Source of the DNA: a bacterium
Lineage (GTDB): Bacteria; Hydrothermota; UBA3072; JAPDKE01
Direction: 5' to 3'
DNA length: 54,135 nt
Assembly (NCBI GenBank): GCA_029258725.1
Contig: JAPDKE010000032.1
Coordinates: 1-54,135, forward strand
Below, piece by piece: positions 2,504-10,132 of the stretch (within the stretch, counting starts at the first letter, position 1; every line of letters begins with the position of its first letter). The translations under genes were made by a program, and so were the position numbers. Below the pieces are notes generated by a model. That model was not told the DNA's origin, made no database searches, and saw only the letters and a list, made by a program, of their open reading frames with translations.

Positions 2504-2532
2504 ATGAGGAGATATTAGCAATATTTCCTCTT

Positions 2533-2631
2533 TCACCTCACCACCATCACCTTCTCCGTGTGTTCATAGGAACCGGCAGTAAACCTTACAAAGTAAACAC
2601 CAGGAGCACTATCAAAATCATTATCGTTATT
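2533..2631 (-). pseudogene. Remnant of a type A (T9SS-like) C-terminal sorting domain
   Basis: Minus-strand frame of about 32 codons with no start, closed upstream by a TAA (2632-2634). It reads N-D-F-D-S, then APGVYFVRFTAGSYEHTEK, then VMVVR and TGA. This is nearly the end of the LVIVD protein at 7931 (SGVYFVRFTAGRFERTEK, VVLMK). It must be the surviving C-terminus of a deleted secreted protein, a paralogue of its neighbours. Confidence 0.8.
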
Positions 2632-2734: not shown

Positions 2735-2896
2735 TCATCTTCTCTCTAAATAGGCCGCCTGGGCTTCTAGTTTTGCCGCTTGCATTTCTAACTTTCTAGC
2801 TGCTAATTCGTTACCTCTTCTCCGATAAGCCTCTGCTTGCATTCTCAACTTTGCTGCTTTCATTCTTAGTACCGCAGCTTTCTGAGCATTACTCAT
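2735..2896 (-). CDS. Small Ala/Lys/Arg-rich coiled-coil protein, 53 aa, unknown function
   Basis: A complete reading frame of 53 codons with an excellent ribosome site (AAAGGAGGTAAGG) just before ATG 2896. The product is one long amphipathic helix in recognisable heptads (LRMKAAK, LRMQAEA, YRRRGNE, LAARKLE, MQAAKLE, AQAAYLE). It is strongly basic in its first half and has no Pro and only one Gly. No family is recognised. It is preceded by a sigma54-like promoter and a leader hairpin, and it lies directly downstream of a sigma54 activator gene on the same strand. It may therefore be a target of that activator. The ribosome site and heptad pattern argue against chance. Confidence 0.65.
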   Translation of the reverse strand: MSNAQKAAVLRMKAAKLRMQAEAYRRRGNELAARKLEMQAAKLEAQAAYLERR

Positions 2897-2922
2897 TCCT
2901 TACCTCCTTTCTTTTTCCCCTC

Positions 2923-2965
2923 CGGCACCAAGAGGGGGTTTCTTACCGTTCCAGGCTCGGTGCCG
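2923..2965 (-). promoter_or_regulatory. Leader hairpin of the small coiled-coil gene
   Basis: CGGCACC (2923-2929) and GGTGCCG (2959-2965) form a 7-bp perfect stem enclosing 29 nt. In the minus-strand transcript it would lie in the leader just upstream of the GGAGG ribosome site. A role in mRNA stability or translation is possible; it fits no known riboswitch. Confidence 0.4.
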
Positions 2966-2984
2966 CCTTTTTGTAAAAAATTTT

Positions 2985-3000
2985 TACAAAAGATGTGCCA
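2985..3000 (-). promoter_or_regulatory. Sigma54-like (-24/-12) promoter
   Basis: On the minus strand, TGGCAC (3000-2995), 5 nt, then TTGT (2989-2986). The consensus is TGGCAC-N5-TTGC, so the invariant GG is present and only the last C of the -12 GC is changed to T. A near-perfect 23-bp palindrome, TTTTGTAAAAA and TTTTTACAAAA (2969-2979, 2981-2991), overlaps the -12 region. Transcription would begin near 2974 and read the small gene at 2896. The adjacent gene encodes a sigma54 activator, which supports the call. Confidence 0.45.
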
Positions 3001-3048
3001 GGGGAAGTGGTTGAATGTAAAGAAATTATTGCAAATGATTGTTTAAGA

Positions 3049-3132
3049 ATTGAACATTATTGAAAAAATGCACGTTTTTTTCTTTTCCACCTTTATTTAA
3101 AGCCTGCCTTTTTGTCCAGTTATTGAACAATG
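3049..3132. promoter_or_regulatory. Possible enhancer (activator-binding) repeats
   Basis: ATTGAACATTATTGAA (3049-3064) and TTATTGAACAATG (3120-3132) share TTGAACA and parts of an inverted TTCAATAA. They lie about 75-90 and 146-158 bp upstream of the inferred sigma54 start near 2974, the usual range for enhancer sites. The region is A/T-rich, so chance similarity cannot be excluded. Confidence 0.3.
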
Positions 3133-3151: not shown

Positions 3152-4732
3152 TCATTCCCTCTCTATCCCGTATCTCTTCATCTTTGTGTAAAGGGTTGTG
3201 CGGCTTATACCAAGTTCGCGGGCGGTTTTTGAGATGTTCCAATTGTTATCCCTGAGGATTTCAAGAATATAAATTTTCTCTATCTCGTCGAGTGACCTCT
3301 CATTTACCTCCTTTTCTTTTCTCTCACGGAGAGAAAGCGGAAGGTGTTCTTCCCTGATTACATTTCCCTCCGACATGGTGGATGCATACTTTATTATATT
3401 CTCAAGTTCTCTCACATTTCCCGGATAGTTGTATTCAAGCAGTATTCTCATAACCTCTGGCGACACCTTCTTTTTATACCGCGATGCAAAATAATTCACA
3501 AACACAGGAATGTCCTCCTTTCTCTTTCTCAAAGGAGGTATCTCCACAACCGCGGTATTTATCCTGTAATAAAGGTCTTTTCTGAACTTCCCCTCCTCCA
3601 CAAGTTTTTCAAGGTTGTGATGGGTTGCACATATAAACCTTATATCTGCCTTCCTCAAAACATTTTCTCCAAGTCTTGTAAATTCTTTATACTCAATAAA
3701 TCTCAAAAGTTTTACCTGAATGCTAGGAGAAAGGTCCCCTATCTCATCAAGAAAAACAGTTCCACCTTCCGCAGTCTCCACCTTTCCCCGCTTGGGTCTC
3801 ACCGCTCCAGTAAATGCACCTTTGGCATATCCAAACAATTCACTCTCTATGAGATTTTCGGGTATGGCAGCACAGTGAATGGGAACAAATGGCTTTTCTC
3901 TCCTTGGACTCATCTCATGGAGCAGTTTCGCAAAAACCTCTTTTCCCACTCCGCTTTCTCCGGTAAAGAGAACCGTAAAATCTCCCTTTGCAAGTTTTCT
4001 TATCCGTGAAAATACCCTCCCCATTCTTTCACTTCTTCCTATTACCACCCCCCTGTAAATAAAAGGTACCGGACGGAGAGCCTCGGGATAAAAATGCTCA
4101 AGAAATCTCTCAGCAACCTCAATGACTTTCTTTCCTATCTCCACATGTTCATCACTAAAAAGATTCTCCACATTCCTGCTATCAAAGTAGAGAATTCCCT
4201 TAATATCCCCGTATTTATCCTTCATCGGGAAGGCAAGCACCGAAAGGATGTTCAATTTTTTTATTGATTCACTTTCCTTAAACCTTTCATCCTTCACCGC
4301 ATTCATAATACATACCGGCTCTCCCGTTGAAAGGATATGAGAAATGATGGAGAAAGAACATTCGATTTCATTAATCGTTGCCTTTTTTATTCTCCCGGTG
4401 GTGAAGTATATAAACCGCAGATTTTTCCCCACATATTTGGGATGAAGCAAGTAAAATCCCCTTTCCGCTCCAAATGCCTCTCCCAGGAATTTAAGCACAT
4501 AGGTAAGAAAACCATCCGGACAGGTATGCCTTTCCAGTGAACGCACCATCATTTCAAAAACCCTGTAAAGGAGGTCTTTTATTTTTCTCTCTTTCTCATA
4601 TTTCTCTATCTTCTCTCCCAGGTCCTTCTCCATGCGGGAGAGAATCTCCATGAAGATTTCTCTCTTCTCTCCCCTGAGTTCTCTTCCAAACCTTTCAAGC
4701 ACTTTCCTGTATTCCTGCCAGACGCTTCTCAA
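3152..4732 (-). CDS. Sigma54-dependent transcriptional activator with GAF sensor domain
   Basis: About 526 residues. There is an N-terminal helical stretch, then a GAF domain (about 50-210). The AAA+ sigma54-interaction domain has Walker A GESGVGKE, the sigma54-contacting loop GAFTGA and Walker [13 protein letters not shown] Fis-type helix-turn-helix closes the protein ([20 protein letters not shown]). It should remodel sigma54 RNA polymerase in response to a ligand or partner sensed by GAF. The likely start is TTG 4732, which has AAAGGAGGTGG correctly spaced; an ATG at 4759 has no ribosome site. The gene overlaps the end of the kinase gene by about 38 nt, pointing to coupled expression. The sigma54-like promoter just downstream (2985-3000) is a plausible target. 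Confidence 0.9.
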
Positions 4733-7700
4733 AATTCCACCTCCTTTTTTGCACCTCAATAAACCTTTGGGGGTCGGGTGCCTCCCCGCTCAATTCTTCA
4801 AGCAATTTTTCACTCTCCTCTCTTTTTCCTGCAAGGTCAAGATATTTCCAGTGAACGATTGGTATTCTGGAAGCATAAGGAAAGAGCATCTCCTGAAGAT
4901 ATCTTTTTTCTTCACCCGAAAGAAGTTTTATAAGATCACATCCTATTAACGCACATTCTGTATTCCGTCCTGCATAGAGAAAGTAAGAGACTGCTTTTTG
5001 AAGTATGTCTTTTGCCTGTTCTGTTTCTCCACGAGAAAGGTGGTAAAGAGCCTTTACCCCGTTCCATAATCCGTAAATTTCATTTTTATTATCAGGCTCA
5101 ACTCTGGGAAATTCCACATTCTCTTCTCTGTAAATCTTTAACTGCGTAAGCAATAGCAAAGCAGATTCTTTCTGAAAAGAAAATCCGTGCTTTTCGCCAA
5201 TTTCCTGCACTTTCCTGATAATTTTTTCTGCTTCTTCCTCTTCTCCCCATGCATAGTAAATTTTTGCACGAAGAATATCAATTATACCACCCCCTCTTAT
5301 ATCCTTTATCTCCTCCGAAAGTTTCTTCCTTCTTTCTGCAAACTCCATCGCCTTCTTTAACCTTCCCTTAAGGAAATTCAACCATGCAAGAGATTGATAA
5401 ATACGTGAAAGAGTAGGAGGAGAGCAGTTTTCAAGGGAGAGTTCGGATAGAAGGGAAAGTGCTTTATCTATCTCCCCACTTTTTTCCAGAAACCTGGCGA
5501 TCCTGTTTACAAGATAAACCCTGTCCCTCTGAGATGTAATATGGGGAAGATATGCCAGAACTTCCTTCACATATTTTTCTGCCTCCCTCATCCTTCCAAG
5601 AACCACAAGGGCAGCCACCACATGCACGGTGGAGTAATAGAGAGATTCCCATAAACCATGCTTTAAAGAAAGTTCTCTTTCTTTCACAAATAATTCATAT
5701 GCCTCTTCCCACCTTCCAAGAGACGCAAGAGAAACTCCCATGTTTCCATAGGACGCTGCAACCACATCCTGTTCTTCTCTTCCACCATATTTTATCGCCC
5801 TTTTATGCCATTTTATTGATTCCTCCAGGTTTCCCTTTTCATATTCCATGAAGCCCACAGTATTACAAAGTGCAGGATATAGAGAATCTCCCCTCTTTAT
5901 TTCCTTCTTTCCTATTTCTGCCACTTTTTCCGCTTCCTCCATTCTTCCAAGAACCACCAGCGCTGAAAGATAAGTTACAATTGAAGGAAGATACATATAA
6001 TGTCTTCTGCCCTCTATCAGCCTTCCAAAAATCCTGTATGTAGTCTCAAAATCTCCTTTTAAAAATGCCACCATACCCTCGTAATACTCCCTCAACTTTC
6101 TGGGGATCCTGCTCTTATACTTTTTAATATGCTCTTCCAGTTTTTTAGCATCTCCTTTCATCTTCAAGATTTTTGCCGCCTTCCACCATATCTCCGTGAA
6201 TTCCCTTCCTTGAATCCCGCATTCTTTCAGCATTTTCTCACACACCCGGAGGACATCATCCAGTCTCCCTTTGTTTTCGTATTCTTCAAGCGCATCCTCA
6301 TAATACATGAGGGCAAAGTCTTCCATGCCTATATCCAGGAAGAAGTCCCCTGCTTCCTCACTGTATTCTTCCATTATCGCATCCTGCACAAAAAGCCCAA
6401 CCTCCCGGTACATATACCACAAAATCTTTTTCACCTCTTCTCTTATTATCTCATGCGAAATAAATGCCCTTCCTTTTTCAGTATAAACCAGACCTTTCTT
6501 TTTCAAGGAATTCAAAGCCTTTTTCTCCACAGGAAGTTCCCTTACAGGATAACCCGGGAAATAGGCGAGGAAGAGAAGGAGAATTTCCTCGTCCTTTGAA
6601 AGATGGAGGAAAAGTTCTCTCATAATCGTTACATTTTCTCCCTTCCCTTTCAAAAATGCCTTACCATAGAATGGATTGGCGTTGCTTAATGCATAGATAA
6701 ATTCTTTATGTTTCTTCTCTATGGAGGGCTGGAGATATTCAAGATACTCAAAAAATGCTTTCTTATCCAATCCCTGCAGTTTTAATTTCTCCCCCGGAGG
6801 TAAATCCCCGGAGAAGGGGCGAAAGGCTCCTGCTATGAGAAGTGGGGAAGATAAAGTGATGGGAAAAAGCCTTTTTATGAAGTCAAGTTTGGCAAAATCT
6901 TCATGAATATCATCCAGTGCAATGAATACCGGAAAAATCCTCACAACCTCTGGTACATCTCCTTCAACACCCCATATTTTTTTCCTTCTTTTTATCTCCC
7001 TCTCCACCTCCCTTACGGTCCTCGCATAAATAGAAAGCCATCCTTCTTTCCTTGCAAGGTTTACAAAATATCTTAAAAGCGTGGTCTTCCCTATGCCTGC
7101 CTCTCCCTCAATCCAGAGGATGCCCCCTTTCTTTTTACAAATAAACTCATGGAAAATCCTGATTTCACTTTCCCTTCCAAAAATTTTCACTTTCTCTTCC
7201 TCTTCCAGTTTTTTTATTATTTCCCGTGCGGGGAAAGGTCTTTCTTCTCTGTTCCAGGAAAGCATCTCCCTGAGAATTTCCTGGTAAGTCTTTGGAGAAA
7301 TCTCTATAACAGGCTTCTTCCTCATCCTCAATGAATCCTCTATTTTCCTGGCATAAAATGGAGGACGGTCGGTGAGGAAATGGTATAAAATACATCCAAG
7401 GGAATAAATGTCCGAGTGGGGAGTTAAGGGTTCTCCCTTTAAGGCCTCGGGAGAGGCATAGAAAAGATGCCCCACTCCTTCAGGTTTTTCCCCAACCTTC
7501 ACCGCCATTCCCACATCGGTTATCTTAATCTCGTTACTCTTAAGAAGTATATTCTCAGGAGAAAGGTCCCCATGCACCCATCCCTTTTCATGAAGATGAC
7601 CAAGAAAAAGCAATAACTGACGGAAAATCCTCATGCGTTCAGGCAAAGAAAGGGATAAGAGACAGCGGGAGAGAGGCACCCCCTTGAATGGCTCATAAGT

Positions 7701-7934
7701 GATGAACTCAGGAGTTATTTCAAGGGGAGAGAGTAAAAGGGGATGGGAAACATCCTTCCGGAATGCAAGGACTTTTTCAGTAAACCGCCTGCCCCTGGGG
7801 AGTTTGAGTACAACATCTCCCCCTGCCCATTTATCATACGCATAGTATACCGAAACCTGGCTCCCCTCCCCGAGCTTCTCCTTTATTTCAAACCTCTTAT
7901 AGACCATTTCCGGAGCAGGTTGTAACCTCTTCAT
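4695..7934 (-). CDS. Ser/Thr protein kinase-AAA ATPase-TPR fusion (PknK-like layout)
   Basis: 1079 residues. The N-terminal kinase domain (about 12-245) has a glycine-rich loop (LGEGSQVSVY), Lys44 in VVLKLP, HGDLSPEN (Asp123, Asn128) and DVG (Asp140) in place of DFG. It keeps the catalytic residues but is a non-RD kinase. An AAA_16/STAND-like ATPase follows, with Walker A GEAGIGKTT (277-285) and the probable Walker B VFIALDDIH. From about 520 to the end it is TPR-like helical repeats. The layout resembles PknK and myxobacterial kinase-ATPase-TPR regulators. No transmembrane segment is seen, so it should be cytoplasmic. It overlaps the upstream propeller gene by ATGA and the downstream sigma54 activator by tens of nt, so the three are probably co-expressed. 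Phosphorylation of the activator is an inference. Confidence 0.9.
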   Translation of the reverse strand: MKRLQPAPEMVYKRFEIKEKLGEGSQVSVYYAYDKWAGGDVVLKLPRGRRFTEKVLAFRKDVSHPLLLSPLEITPEFITYEPFKGVPLSRCLLSLSLPERMRIFRQLLLFLGHLHEKGWVHGDLSPENILLKSNEIKITDVGMAVKVGEKPEGVGHLFYASPEALKGEPLTPHSDIYSLGCILYHFLTDRPPFYARKIEDSLRMRKKPVIEISPKTYQEILREMLSWNREERPFPAREIIKKLEEEEKVKIFGRESEIRIFHEFICKKKGGILWIEGEAGIGKTTLLRYFVNLARKEGWLSIYARTVREVEREIKRRKKIWGVEGDVPEVVRIFPVFIALDDIHEDFAKLDFIKRLFPITLSSPLLIAGAFRPFSGDLPPGEKLKLQGLDKKAFFEYLEYLQPSIEKKHKEFIYALSNANPFYGKAFLKGKGENVTIMRELFLHLSKDEEILLLFLAYFPGYPVRELPVEKKALNSLKKKGLVYTEKGRAFISHEIIREEVKKILWYMYREVGLFVQDAIMEEYSEEAGDFFLDIGMEDFALMYYEDALEEYENKGRLDDVLRVCEKMLKECGIQGREFTEIWWKAAKILKMKGDAKKLEEHIKKYKSRIPRKLREYYEGMVAFLKGDFETTYRIFGRLIEGRRHYMYLPSIVTYLSALVVLGRMEEAEKVAEIGKKEIKRGDSLYPALCNTVGFMEYEKGNLEESIKWHKRAIKYGGREEQDVVAASYGNMGVSLASLGRWEEAYELFVKERELSLKHGLWESLYYSTVHVVAALVVLGRMREAEKYVKEVLAYLPHITSQRDRVYLVNRIARFLEKSGEIDKALSLLSELSLENCSPPTLSRIYQSLAWLNFLKGRLKKAMEFAERRKKLSEEIKDIRGGGIIDILRAKIYYAWGEEEEAEKIIRKVQEIGEKHGFSFQKESALLLLTQLKIYREENVEFPRVEPDNKNEIYGLWNGVKALYHLSRGETEQAKDILQKAVSYFLYAGRNTECALIGCDLIKLLSGEEKRYLQEMLFPYASRIPIVHWKYLDLAGKREESEKLLEELSGEAPDPQRFIEVQKRRWNFEKRLAGIQESA

Positions 7935-10132
7935 TTCATCAATACCACCTTTTCGGTTCGTTCAAATCTGCCTGCGGTGAATCTTACAAAGTAAACACCG
8001 GAAGGAAGATGGAAATCATAATCTATACCATGCCTGCCATGCTTCATGTCTCTATCCAGTATTCTCTCCACGCACCTCCCAAGAATATCATAAATCTCAA
8101 GGGTAACATGAGTATCTTCTGGAAGGAAAAACTCTATATTCAGGGTCTTCGTGAAAAAGTGAGAAGAAAGAGAAAGGGTATATTCTTTTTCTTTTTCAGA
8201 AGGAGGAAGCCCCTGAAGGGTGAATAGATAAATTTGAAGACCTGCACCACTATTTGCCACATAGATATAATTGTCCTGAACAAAAACATCATACGCTGTG
8301 GCATGCCTCTCATAATAACCAACTTCATAAGGAGAAAAAGGGTCGGAGACATCTATCACCCTCACACCAGGACTTCCATCCACCACATAGGCATAGTTAT
8401 CGGAAACAAACACCGCATATGCAGAGCCCGGTGTATTGCAAAAGCCTGTCTGATAAGGAAAAGAAGGGTCCGTAATATCTATGACACTTAATTCTGAATC
8501 TCTATCCGCAACATAGGCATAATTACCTGAGACAAAAACATCGTATGCATAACCCAAGCTATCATAATAACCAACCTCATAGGGAGAGGAAGGATCGGAG
8601 ATATCTATTATCCTCAAACCTCCCCAACCATCAGCTACATAGGCATAGTTGCCGGACACAAAGACACCTTCTGCAGAACCCAAGGTATTGTAATAGCCAC
8701 TCTCGGAAGGAGAGGAAACATCAGATATGTCTATTATCCTCAAACCTCCCCAGCTATCAGCTACATAAGCGTAATCACCCGAAACAAAGACACCGTATGC
8801 CATATCCGGAGTATCATAATAACCTACTTCGGCTGGAGAGGAAGGATCAGAAATATCTATAATTCTTATACCCGAATTCCCGTCCGCAATATAAGCATAA
8901 GTACCAGACACAACAACGTCATATGCGTTGTCAGGAGTGTCACAACAACTAACTTTCTGAGGAGAAGACGGATCAGATATGTCTATTATCATCAAACCTG
9001 CCTTCCTATCCGCCACATAGGCATAGTTGCCGAAGACAAAAACACCCCATGCACAGTCCGGGGTATTATAATAACCTGCTTCATAAGGAGAGGAAGGAGT
9101 GGATATATCTATTACCCTTAATGAATGATAATCCGCCACAAAGGCATAATTTCCAAAAACAAAAACATCCAATGCATAGCCTGGTGTATCGAAATCACCC
9201 ACCATAAAGGGGGAAGAGGGCTCTGATATATCTATTACACTTAAACCACCGAAATAATCTACCACAAAGGCATAGTTACCAGAAACATAAACACCCAAAG
9301 CCCAGACCAGGGTGTCGCAATAACCCACCTCATAAGGGGAGGAAGGAGTGGAAATGTCTATAATCCTTAAACCTGAACTTCCATCCGCCACATAGGCATA
9401 GTTACCGGAAACAAAAACACCATATGCCCAGTTCGGGGTATCACAATAACCTTCCTCTTGAGGAGAAGAGGGAGTGGAAACGTTTATGATATAAACTCTT
9501 CCTTCGTATACCCCATCGTTATCAAAATCGTCTCCCACAACCACACAGGCATAATTTCCCCAAATAAAAACATCCATTGCATAGCCTGGGGTATGATAAT
9601 AACCCACCTCATAGGGAGAAGATGGATTGGATATGTCTATTATCCTCAAACCTGAATAGGCATCCGTCACATATGCATAGTTACCCGAGACAAAAACATT
9701 ATTTGGATAGCCCTGGATAAAATATCTTCCCATCTTCTCAGGAGCGGCAGGATTGGATACATCCCATATCTCAAGTCCTCCTGGACCATCGGCAATGTAA
9801 AGCCTCTCGGTGTTCTCATCGTAAAAAAGAGCACTTACCATACCCCTTGTGCGCATCTCGCCGACGTATAAAAGGCTTTCAGGATTATCTCCATCAAGAA
9901 CATATACCCCTCCTCCTGAACCAAGAAAAATAAGGTTTCTTGTCGTGTCCACTGTAACGGCATAAGCAGGACCAAAGGGCCAGTTGCCCACAAAAGTAAC
10001 ATTAAGTGAATCAAATCCAGAAAGAGAAACAAAAGATCTCTTAACCCAAGATGTATTCTCTTCAACAAACCTAAAACCTCTACCCCCTGAAACCTCCCAA
10101 ATATAGGGTGTTACAAAAATTAACCATATCAT
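7931..10132 (-). CDS. Secreted LVIVD-repeat beta-propeller protein with T9SS-like sorting domain
   Basis: 733 residues with a short signal peptide (MIWLIFVTPYIWEV). Then come about 12-13 LVIVD-type repeats of about 42 residues, each built on a pattern like GNYAYVADGSSGLRIIDIS followed by DPSSP. The last about 80 residues form a type A sorting domain (VTLEIYDILGR, HLPSGVYFVRFTAG, TEKVVLMK). It should be exported across the outer membrane and attached to the cell surface. Twelve to thirteen blades exceed one 7-blade propeller, so two propellers or a long solenoid is likely. The TGA stop overlaps the kinase ATG (ATGA). The start has AAAAGGAGGGAGG upstream. It is a paralogue of the protein at 10190. 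Confidence 0.9.
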   Translation of the reverse strand: MIWLIFVTPYIWEVSGGRGFRFVEENTSWVKRSFVSLSGFDSLNVTFVGNWPFGPAYAVTVDTTRNLIFLGSGGGVYVLDGDNPESLLYVGEMRTRGMVSALFYDENTERLYIADGPGGLEIWDVSNPAAPEKMGRYFIQGYPNNVFVSGNYAYVTDAYSGLRIIDISNPSSPYEVGYYHTPGYAMDVFIWGNYACVVVGDDFDNDGVYEGRVYIINVSTPSSPQEEGYCDTPNWAYGVFVSGNYAYVADGSSGLRIIDISTPSSPYEVGYCDTLVWALGVYVSGNYAFVVDYFGGLSVIDISEPSSPFMVGDFDTPGYALDVFVFGNYAFVADYHSLRVIDISTPSSPYEAGYYNTPDCAWGVFVFGNYAYVADRKAGLMIIDISDPSSPQKVSCCDTPDNAYDVVVSGTYAYIADGNSGIRIIDISDPSSPAEVGYYDTPDMAYGVFVSGDYAYVADSWGGLRIIDISDVSSPSESGYYNTLGSAEGVFVSGNYAYVADGWGGLRIIDISDPSSPYEVGYYDSLGYAYDVFVSGNYAYVADRDSELSVIDITDPSFPYQTGFCNTPGSAYAVFVSDNYAYVVDGSPGVRVIDVSDPFSPYEVGYYERHATAYDVFVQDNYIYVANSGAGLQIYLFTLQGLPPSEKEKEYTLSLSSHFFTKTLNIEFFLPEDTHVTLEIYDILGRCVERILDRDMKHGRHGIDYDFHLPSGVYFVRFTAGRFERTEKVVLMK
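8290..9660 (-). repeat. Tandem coding repeats of about 126-129 bp
   Basis: The central part of the 7931 propeller gene is a run of near-identical units of about 42 codons. On the plus strand a block like CATAGTTGCC recurs about every 126-129 bp (for example near 8642, 9024, 9276 and 9400). The copies are more alike than those in the paralogue at 10190, suggesting recent amplification or gene conversion. Confidence 0.75.

Follow-up and report, generated by a model that had tools for sequence, protein, structure and literature searches.

A protein kinase-AAA-TPR sensor and a GAF-AAA-Fis activator, together a split regulator, probably switch on the adjacent gene for a 53-aa helical hairpin through two upstream sites and a sigma54 promoter, a reading to which we give a probability of about 0.7. 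The genes lie in a stretch of 54,135 nucleotides (the window), one contig (C14) of a genome of 2.1 Mb; the nearest genomes among those compared share only its class. WOR-3, the group concerned, has no cultured member, and sigma54 regulons do not seem to have been described in it; the literature searched included no paper naming both. The genome follows a plain pattern in which the sigma54 promoter comes after the gene of its activator, TTGT being apparently accepted at -12, and this makes targets predictable.

In the proposed mechanism, a single operon would make an LVIVD propeller, the kinase-AAA-TPR sensor and the GAF-AAA-Fis enhancer-binding protein. A signal would switch on the kinase/activator pair, and the activator would bind TGT-N11-ACA sites at 3040-3056 and 3113-3129 and loop to sigma54-RNA polymerase at 2986-3000. 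A short transcript, its leader about 78 nt long, would then be started and would encode a helical hairpin of 53 aa that would stay in the cell. The palindrome that spans the -12 element may serve as a third site, used for shutting transcription off. Sequence statistics support the promoter, the competence of the activator, the adjacency of promoter and activator as a rule of this genome, and coding selection on the heptads of the small protein; binding, activation and the signal at this locus are what we infer. The features are as follows.

2526..2620, minus strand: Por-tail remnant of an LVIVD-propeller 3' end that has been deleted, with the small gene on one side and a Cys/Met PLP enzyme gene on the other; from identity
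2735..2896, minus strand: small gene, 53 aa, an orphan, predicted heptad-repeat helical hairpin; from the ORF, lag-7 test, single-sequence fold and charge
2902..2910, minus strand: ribosome site AAAGGAGGT, 5 nt ahead of the ATG; from sequence
2923..2965, minus strand: leader hairpin, 10-bp stem CGGCACCGAG/CTTGGTGCCG (arms 2923-2932 and 2956-2965); from sequence
2969..2991, no strand: exact 23-bp palindrome across the -12 element, holding a third TGT-N11-ACA (2972-2988); from sequence
2986..3000, minus strand (read 3000..2986): predicted sigma54 promoter TGGCAC-ATCTT-TTGT (TGGCACATCTTTTGT), predicted +1 near 2974; from motif and genome-wide placement
3040..3056, no strand: candidate enhancer site 1, TGTTTAAGAATTGAACA, a TGT-N11-ACA near-palindrome centred at about -74
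3113..3129, no strand: candidate enhancer site 2, TGTCCAGTTATTGAACA, a TGT-N11-ACA near-palindrome centred at about -147, 73 bp from site 1
3152..4732, minus strand: GAF-AAA+(sigma54)-Fis activator, TTG start at 4732 preferred over 4759; from domains and alignment
4695..7934, minus strand: protein kinase-AAA-TPR sensor, overlapping the activator gene; from domains
7931..10132, minus strand: LVIVD beta-propeller that carries a Por secretion tail, the stop codon overlapping the kinase start; from domains

The promoter and its activator

The sequence TGGCACATCTTTTGT is the sole sigma54-like site of its score on either strand of the 54-kb window. It lies in the right orientation at 3000..2986, as the preliminary description had claimed, with GG at -24, a 5-nt spacing to the -12 element and, within that element, a T where the consensus has C. 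This T had been named as the weak point of the site, a concern that seems to fall away because the genome encodes sigma54 (rpoN; PF04552, E 8e-52, contig C42) and places TTGT sites before starts. TTGT is as frequent as TTGC here, and 8 of the 9 other TTGT sites sit 40-49 nt before a Shine-Dalgarno (SD) sequence and start, so that TTGT looks to be accepted at -12 in this genome. Genome-wide, TGGCAC-N5-TTGT is found 10 times and its reversed control 4 times; for the strict form TGGCAC-R-N4-TTGC-W the counts are 6 and 0. The 16 perfect sites are the 10 with TTGT and 6 that read TGGCAC-N5-TTGCA. An SD and ORF start follow 40-56 nt downstream of 11 of the 15 other perfect sites, as compared with 3.9% of random positions. 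In the 298 kb examined, scrambled motifs and variants with N4 or N6 spacing hardly occur, and no such sequence stands ahead of a start. At the window site -24 and ATG are 104 nt apart, more than the 40-56 nt at most other genomic sites. A sigma70 promoter for the small gene was also sought; the only site found lies outside the leader and is no more than chance would give.

Of the 16 perfect sites, 7 lie 3' of an activator gene (one of 16 PF00158 matches), on its coding strand and no more than 200 bp away, with about 0.02 expected given 16 sites and 4.2 Mb of strands; they are found on C7, C10, C14 (the window), C15, C22, C26 and C43. Among the genes behind the sigma54-like sites of the genome are csm1, a pilin gene (C8), a lipoprotein-like gene and genes for secreted proteins.

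Several of these places can be described further. On C43, a CARF (Csx14/NE0113)-AAA-Fis regulator (L036:7437-11198) lies 13 bp before TGGCACAGGTTTTGT, which sits 45 nt ahead of csm1/cas10; the regulator has GVATDV in place of GAFTGA, and its sigma54 role is thus only putative. On C8, a type IV pilin-like gene lies behind TGGCACGGAATTTGCA, with a second site, TGGCATGGAATTTGT, about 550 bp upstream (L045:5233 and 5780). On C2, TGGCACTTTTTTTGT (L042:6438) precedes rpmH-rnpA (ribosomal protein L34) by 42 nt; a sigma54 promoter would not be expected there, and the match may be due to chance.

The activator itself carries PF00158, HTH_8 and GAF domains, with Walker A (GESGVGKE) at residue 267 and, as had been stated, an intact GAFTGA loop, found at residue 314. 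Walker A, GAFTGA, a Fis-type HTH and an N-terminal sensor domain are thus all present, as in an enhancer-binding protein. TTG 4732 is more likely to be its start than 4759 because it has its own SD. The kinase retains residues K44, D123, N128 and D140 and contains TPR repeats, which make it a candidate receptor of the RRNPPA kind. The propeller, kinase-AAA-TPR and GAF-AAA-Fis genes follow one another in head-to-tail overlaps. Single fused proteins of about 1650 aa match the kinase in their N-terminal part and the activator in their C-terminal part, and by this alignment the pair is the split form of the fused kinase-TPR-GAF-sigma54 regulators that are common in WOR-3. The association of kinase and activator had been proposed earlier and is strengthened by a second WOR-3 genome, G001, in which the overlapping pair is conserved.

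Between activator and promoter lie the TTGAACA repeats (ATTGAACA, 3049-3056 and 3122-3129) reported in the preliminary description, which are halves of two TGT-N11-ACA near-palindromes. This 151-bp gap holds two TGT-N11-ACA sequences against 0.028 expected, and the whole 54 kb holds 10. The paired-palindrome score of the two repeats is reached by 4.8% of Markov sequences (p about 0.05); alone it is modest, and the count in the gap is the stronger evidence. A search of the whole genome with the palindromic consensus, allowing up to two mismatches, returned three places, two of them the enhancer candidates, a result that is partly circular because the consensus was built from these two sites. 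In Clostridiales, TGT-N10-12-ACA is the commonest class of enhancer motif for Fis-type activators, the sites are mostly 100-250 bp further up than the promoter, and for 65% of the activators the target is one operon (PMC6615313). The candidate sites upstream of the promoter belong to this class by motif. Because of rpoN, the placement of sites by activators and starts, and the TGT-N11-ACA sites, it is very likely that 2986-3000 is a sigma54 promoter controlled by the adjacent activator, as the earlier proposal of such control had it.

The palindrome over -12 is exact, with arms 2969-2979 and 2981-2991 pairing at 11 of 11 positions, and was equalled in 4 of 3000 Markov sequences. Looked for as a common feature of sigma54 promoters, it was not seen at the other sites. 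The leader hairpin is likewise where it had been described, though its stability does not exceed that of shuffled sequences (z = -0.65), and an Rfam search of the leader gave no family near threshold. A further strong G+C hairpin, CCCCTCCCCC-TCACAG-GGGGGAGGGG, lies at 2661-2686 between the small gene and the next gene and is terminator-like on the plus strand.

The small gene and its product

The ORF at 2735-2896 (minus strand) encodes MSNAQKAAVLRMKAAKLRMQAEAYRRRGNELAARKLEMQAAKLEAQAAYLERR, and the 53 codons, strong ribosome site and clear heptads claimed for it are all there, the SD being perfect. Identity at lag 7 is 19 of 46 positions, with every other lag from 1 to 19 giving 2-9, and was matched by none of 20,000 shuffles. 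Pairs of identical heptad residues with degenerate codons use different codons in 11 of 18 cases, and at lag 21 the DNA is no more than 43% identical. The heptads are thus kept by selection on the protein and do not reflect a recent DNA repeat. A hydrophobic-moment test (95-105 degrees) was negative; it is unsuitable for an Ala-rich heptad, and lag-7 identity was used instead. The protein is A/R-rich with a net charge of +8, in keeping with its description as basic and helical, and a single-sequence AlphaFold2 run predicts a two-helix hairpin (mean pLDDT 97) rather than one long coil. Its sequence has neither the hydrophobic N-terminus of a secretion signal nor a proline tail. By a synonymous measure, its codon usage falls below every 53-codon window of 134 long ORFs, and the gene is therefore foreign, young or oddly selected.

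Searches for relatives of the small protein yielded only chance-level matches in whole-genome tblastn across the phylum, no homologue in the genome-contig, viral-contig and plasmid collections, and no significant sequence match in Pfam, NCBIfam or PDB. Synaptobrevin (Pfam, 0.011) and a PHROG match (0.016) fell below the cut-off, as is usual for coiled coils. A fold search with the hairpin likewise gave nothing significant.

By sequence, the closest relative that was found is a candidate division WOR-3 bacterium (G001, record WFRC01000251.1), which places the source genome in WOR-3. Its split pair shows 34% identity for the kinase and 51% for the activator, and was the only other orthologous split pair found in a search of genome contigs with the kinase alignment. 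Behind this pair, neither a small ORF nor a sigma54-like site occurs within the remaining 1.1 kb of the contig. The preliminary description had presented the small protein as the output of the propeller-kinase-activator operon, and conservation of this output is not supported: ORF and -24/-12 element are missing beside the G001 pair (1.1 kb), and the protein has no relatives in the collections searched. A single distant comparison cannot refute a promoter in the source genome, but it makes the small gene lineage-specific. We read the small protein as a lineage-specific, intracellular output.

Fused regulators and small secreted peptides in WOR-3

Behind fused regulators of WOR-3 there is a recurrent order of genes and sites: the regulator, 100-500 bp, a sigma54-like site, 39-64 nt, and then an ORF of 44-84 aa. 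The sites read TGGCAC, TGACAC, TGTCAC or TGGTAT, N5, and TTGC or TTGT. The N-terminus of the small ORFs is hydrophobic and the tail usually acidic and Pro/Gly-rich, for example ...EEEPIPMPPASGNVWLNPQ in L131, ...DPDDIPVPPPPPIEPGTG in L114 and ...AEDPDDFLPPDIPGA on C22 of the source genome, and the tail is present in two copies in L113, L139 and L141. The loci are L131, L114, L126, L128, L125, L107, L111, L147, L159, L162, L166, L153, L163, L139, L141, L113, L118 and C22 (L034:5582-5770), and their regulators have the fused order kinase/PAS-AAA-TPR-GAF-sigma54-Fis.

A fixed rule was applied, which asked for a sigma54-like site within 700 bp and, 35-70 nt beyond that site, a small ORF whose N-terminus is hydrophobic. 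By this rule, formed partly on the same data and applied to related genomes that are not independent, the arrangement is found in at least 14 of 32 fused WOR-3 regulators against 0 of 288 other genes. The 14 comprise 12 of 30 fused regulators recognised by a regular expression plus L162 and L166, which the expression had placed among the other genes. L141 and L153 also carry the arrangement and miss the threshold for the hydrophobic run. Among GAF activators under 800 aa it occurs in 2 of 30; L114 is cut by its contig. Pfam and NCBIfam models gave no match to the secreted peptides, and the literature searched contained no description of the regulator-peptide arrangement. Fused regulators and small secreted peptide genes are a candidate new family of peptide-signalling systems, and the larger interest lies in this family-wide pairing, beyond the window locus.

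A second small ORF of 64-71 aa follows the propeptide in L034 (C22; +190 after the promoter), L153 (+372) and L159 (+452). It has an Sm/Hfq-like pattern, IxxxDGxxxxGEIxxxD, and its match to Hfq is below threshold (E 0.096).

Role of the hairpin and comparison with known systems

Our preferred guess for the role of the hairpin, and a tentative one, is that it may act in feedback, as a partner of the kinase/TPR protein or of the activator. The fused relatives suggest a different history, possible if doubtful, in which the small gene replaces a secreted signalling propeptide and the TPR sensors are receptors for the product of their own promoter, exported and matured in the relatives and here an intracellular hairpin. 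Such a history would fit the 14 or more of 32 fused regulators followed by site and small ORF (0 of 288 other genes), the short, Pro- or Gly-rich tails, doubled in L113, L139 and L141, and the window pair being a split form of such a regulator. However, the window product has no signal sequence, proline tail or relative among the propeptides, and the shared origin of rule and data, like the kinship of the genomes, applies here too. The most extended version of this idea is one we think unlikely: that the WOR-3 kinase/PAS-AAA-TPR-GAF-sigma54 regulators and their small genes form a new peptide-signalling family, each product being the ligand or feedback partner of the very TPR sensor by which its gene is switched on, with the window as a split version whose product is now an intracellular helical hairpin.

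The 95-bp propeller remnant behind the small gene (2526-2620), which matches an LVIVD gene end on C18 (L179) at 93% identity and another such end, at 7926-8023, at 72%, leaves some room for the view that the small protein is an unrelated effector recombined under a promoter whose ancestral target was a secreted LVIVD propeller. The atypical codons and orphan status of the gene point the same way, and two other activator-adjacent sites (C15, C26) drive a secreted or lipoprotein-like gene; yet the remnant could equally derive from the neighbouring propeller array, the events are undated, and the small gene has a good ribosome site at a proper spacing. It is improbable that the protein is a PspA- or Rop-like hairpin binding the AAA domain of the activator or RNA. 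Its best fold matches in PDB, all non-significant, are the hairpins of ESCRT-III, PspA and Vipp1 (E 1.3-2.9, TM 0.86-0.90 over 50 residues), its charge is +8, and PspA does inhibit the activator of its own sigma54 operon, but any long helical hairpin scores alike. The PspA/IM30 family gave no Pfam or NCBIfam match and only this non-significant fold match, no sequence match was found in PDB, and the activator has a GAF domain, unlike PspF. Rop variants reached a TM of about 0.4 with E above 4 and no sequence match, which does not place the protein in Rop/Rom. Finally, the promoter-like site and ORF could be meaningless products of chance, as their absence in G001, the orphan status and the codons would allow; the genome-wide placement of sites, the lag-7 heptads with codon variation and the perfect SD make this very improbable. 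Taken together, the features first described are confirmed, and the regulatory part of the preliminary interpretation has more support than was available to it at the time, the part on function being hypothetical.

Among known systems, the window most resembles the Type Ib sigma54 enhancer-binding proteins (NifA, FhlA and Clostridiales groups), with which it shares the GAF-AAA+-Fis order, GAFTGA, TGT-N10-12-ACA above -24/-12 and a regulator gene adjoining its target. In contrast to these, its sensor is a separate kinase-AAA-TPR protein, its target is one orphan gene of 53 aa and its -12 element is TTGT. PspA binds the AAA domain of PspF and inhibits this activator of its own sigma54 operon; the window is similar in that a helical-hairpin protein would be made from a sigma54 promoter adjoining its activator, but there is no sequence similarity, the protein has 53 aa as opposed to about 220, and the activator has GAF. 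Rop binds RNA and, like the window protein, is a short helical hairpin with heptads, whereas the window protein is A/R-rich and +8, without sequence match and with a fold TM of about 0.4. RRNPPA systems are laid out as a TPR receptor with an adjacent propeptide. The TPR sensor is shared, and in the fused WOR-3 relatives a secreted propeptide gene lies directly downstream, its tail sometimes repeated. RRNPPA systems have been described as cytoplasmic receptors of Firmicutes (PMC9765709), whereas here the regulator is of the kinase-AAA-TPR-GAF-sigma54 type and the small protein of the window is not secreted. If functional, the phylum-wide pairing would be peptide signalling outside Firmicutes, built on sigma54, and the window locus would be a variant of it with a non-secreted product.
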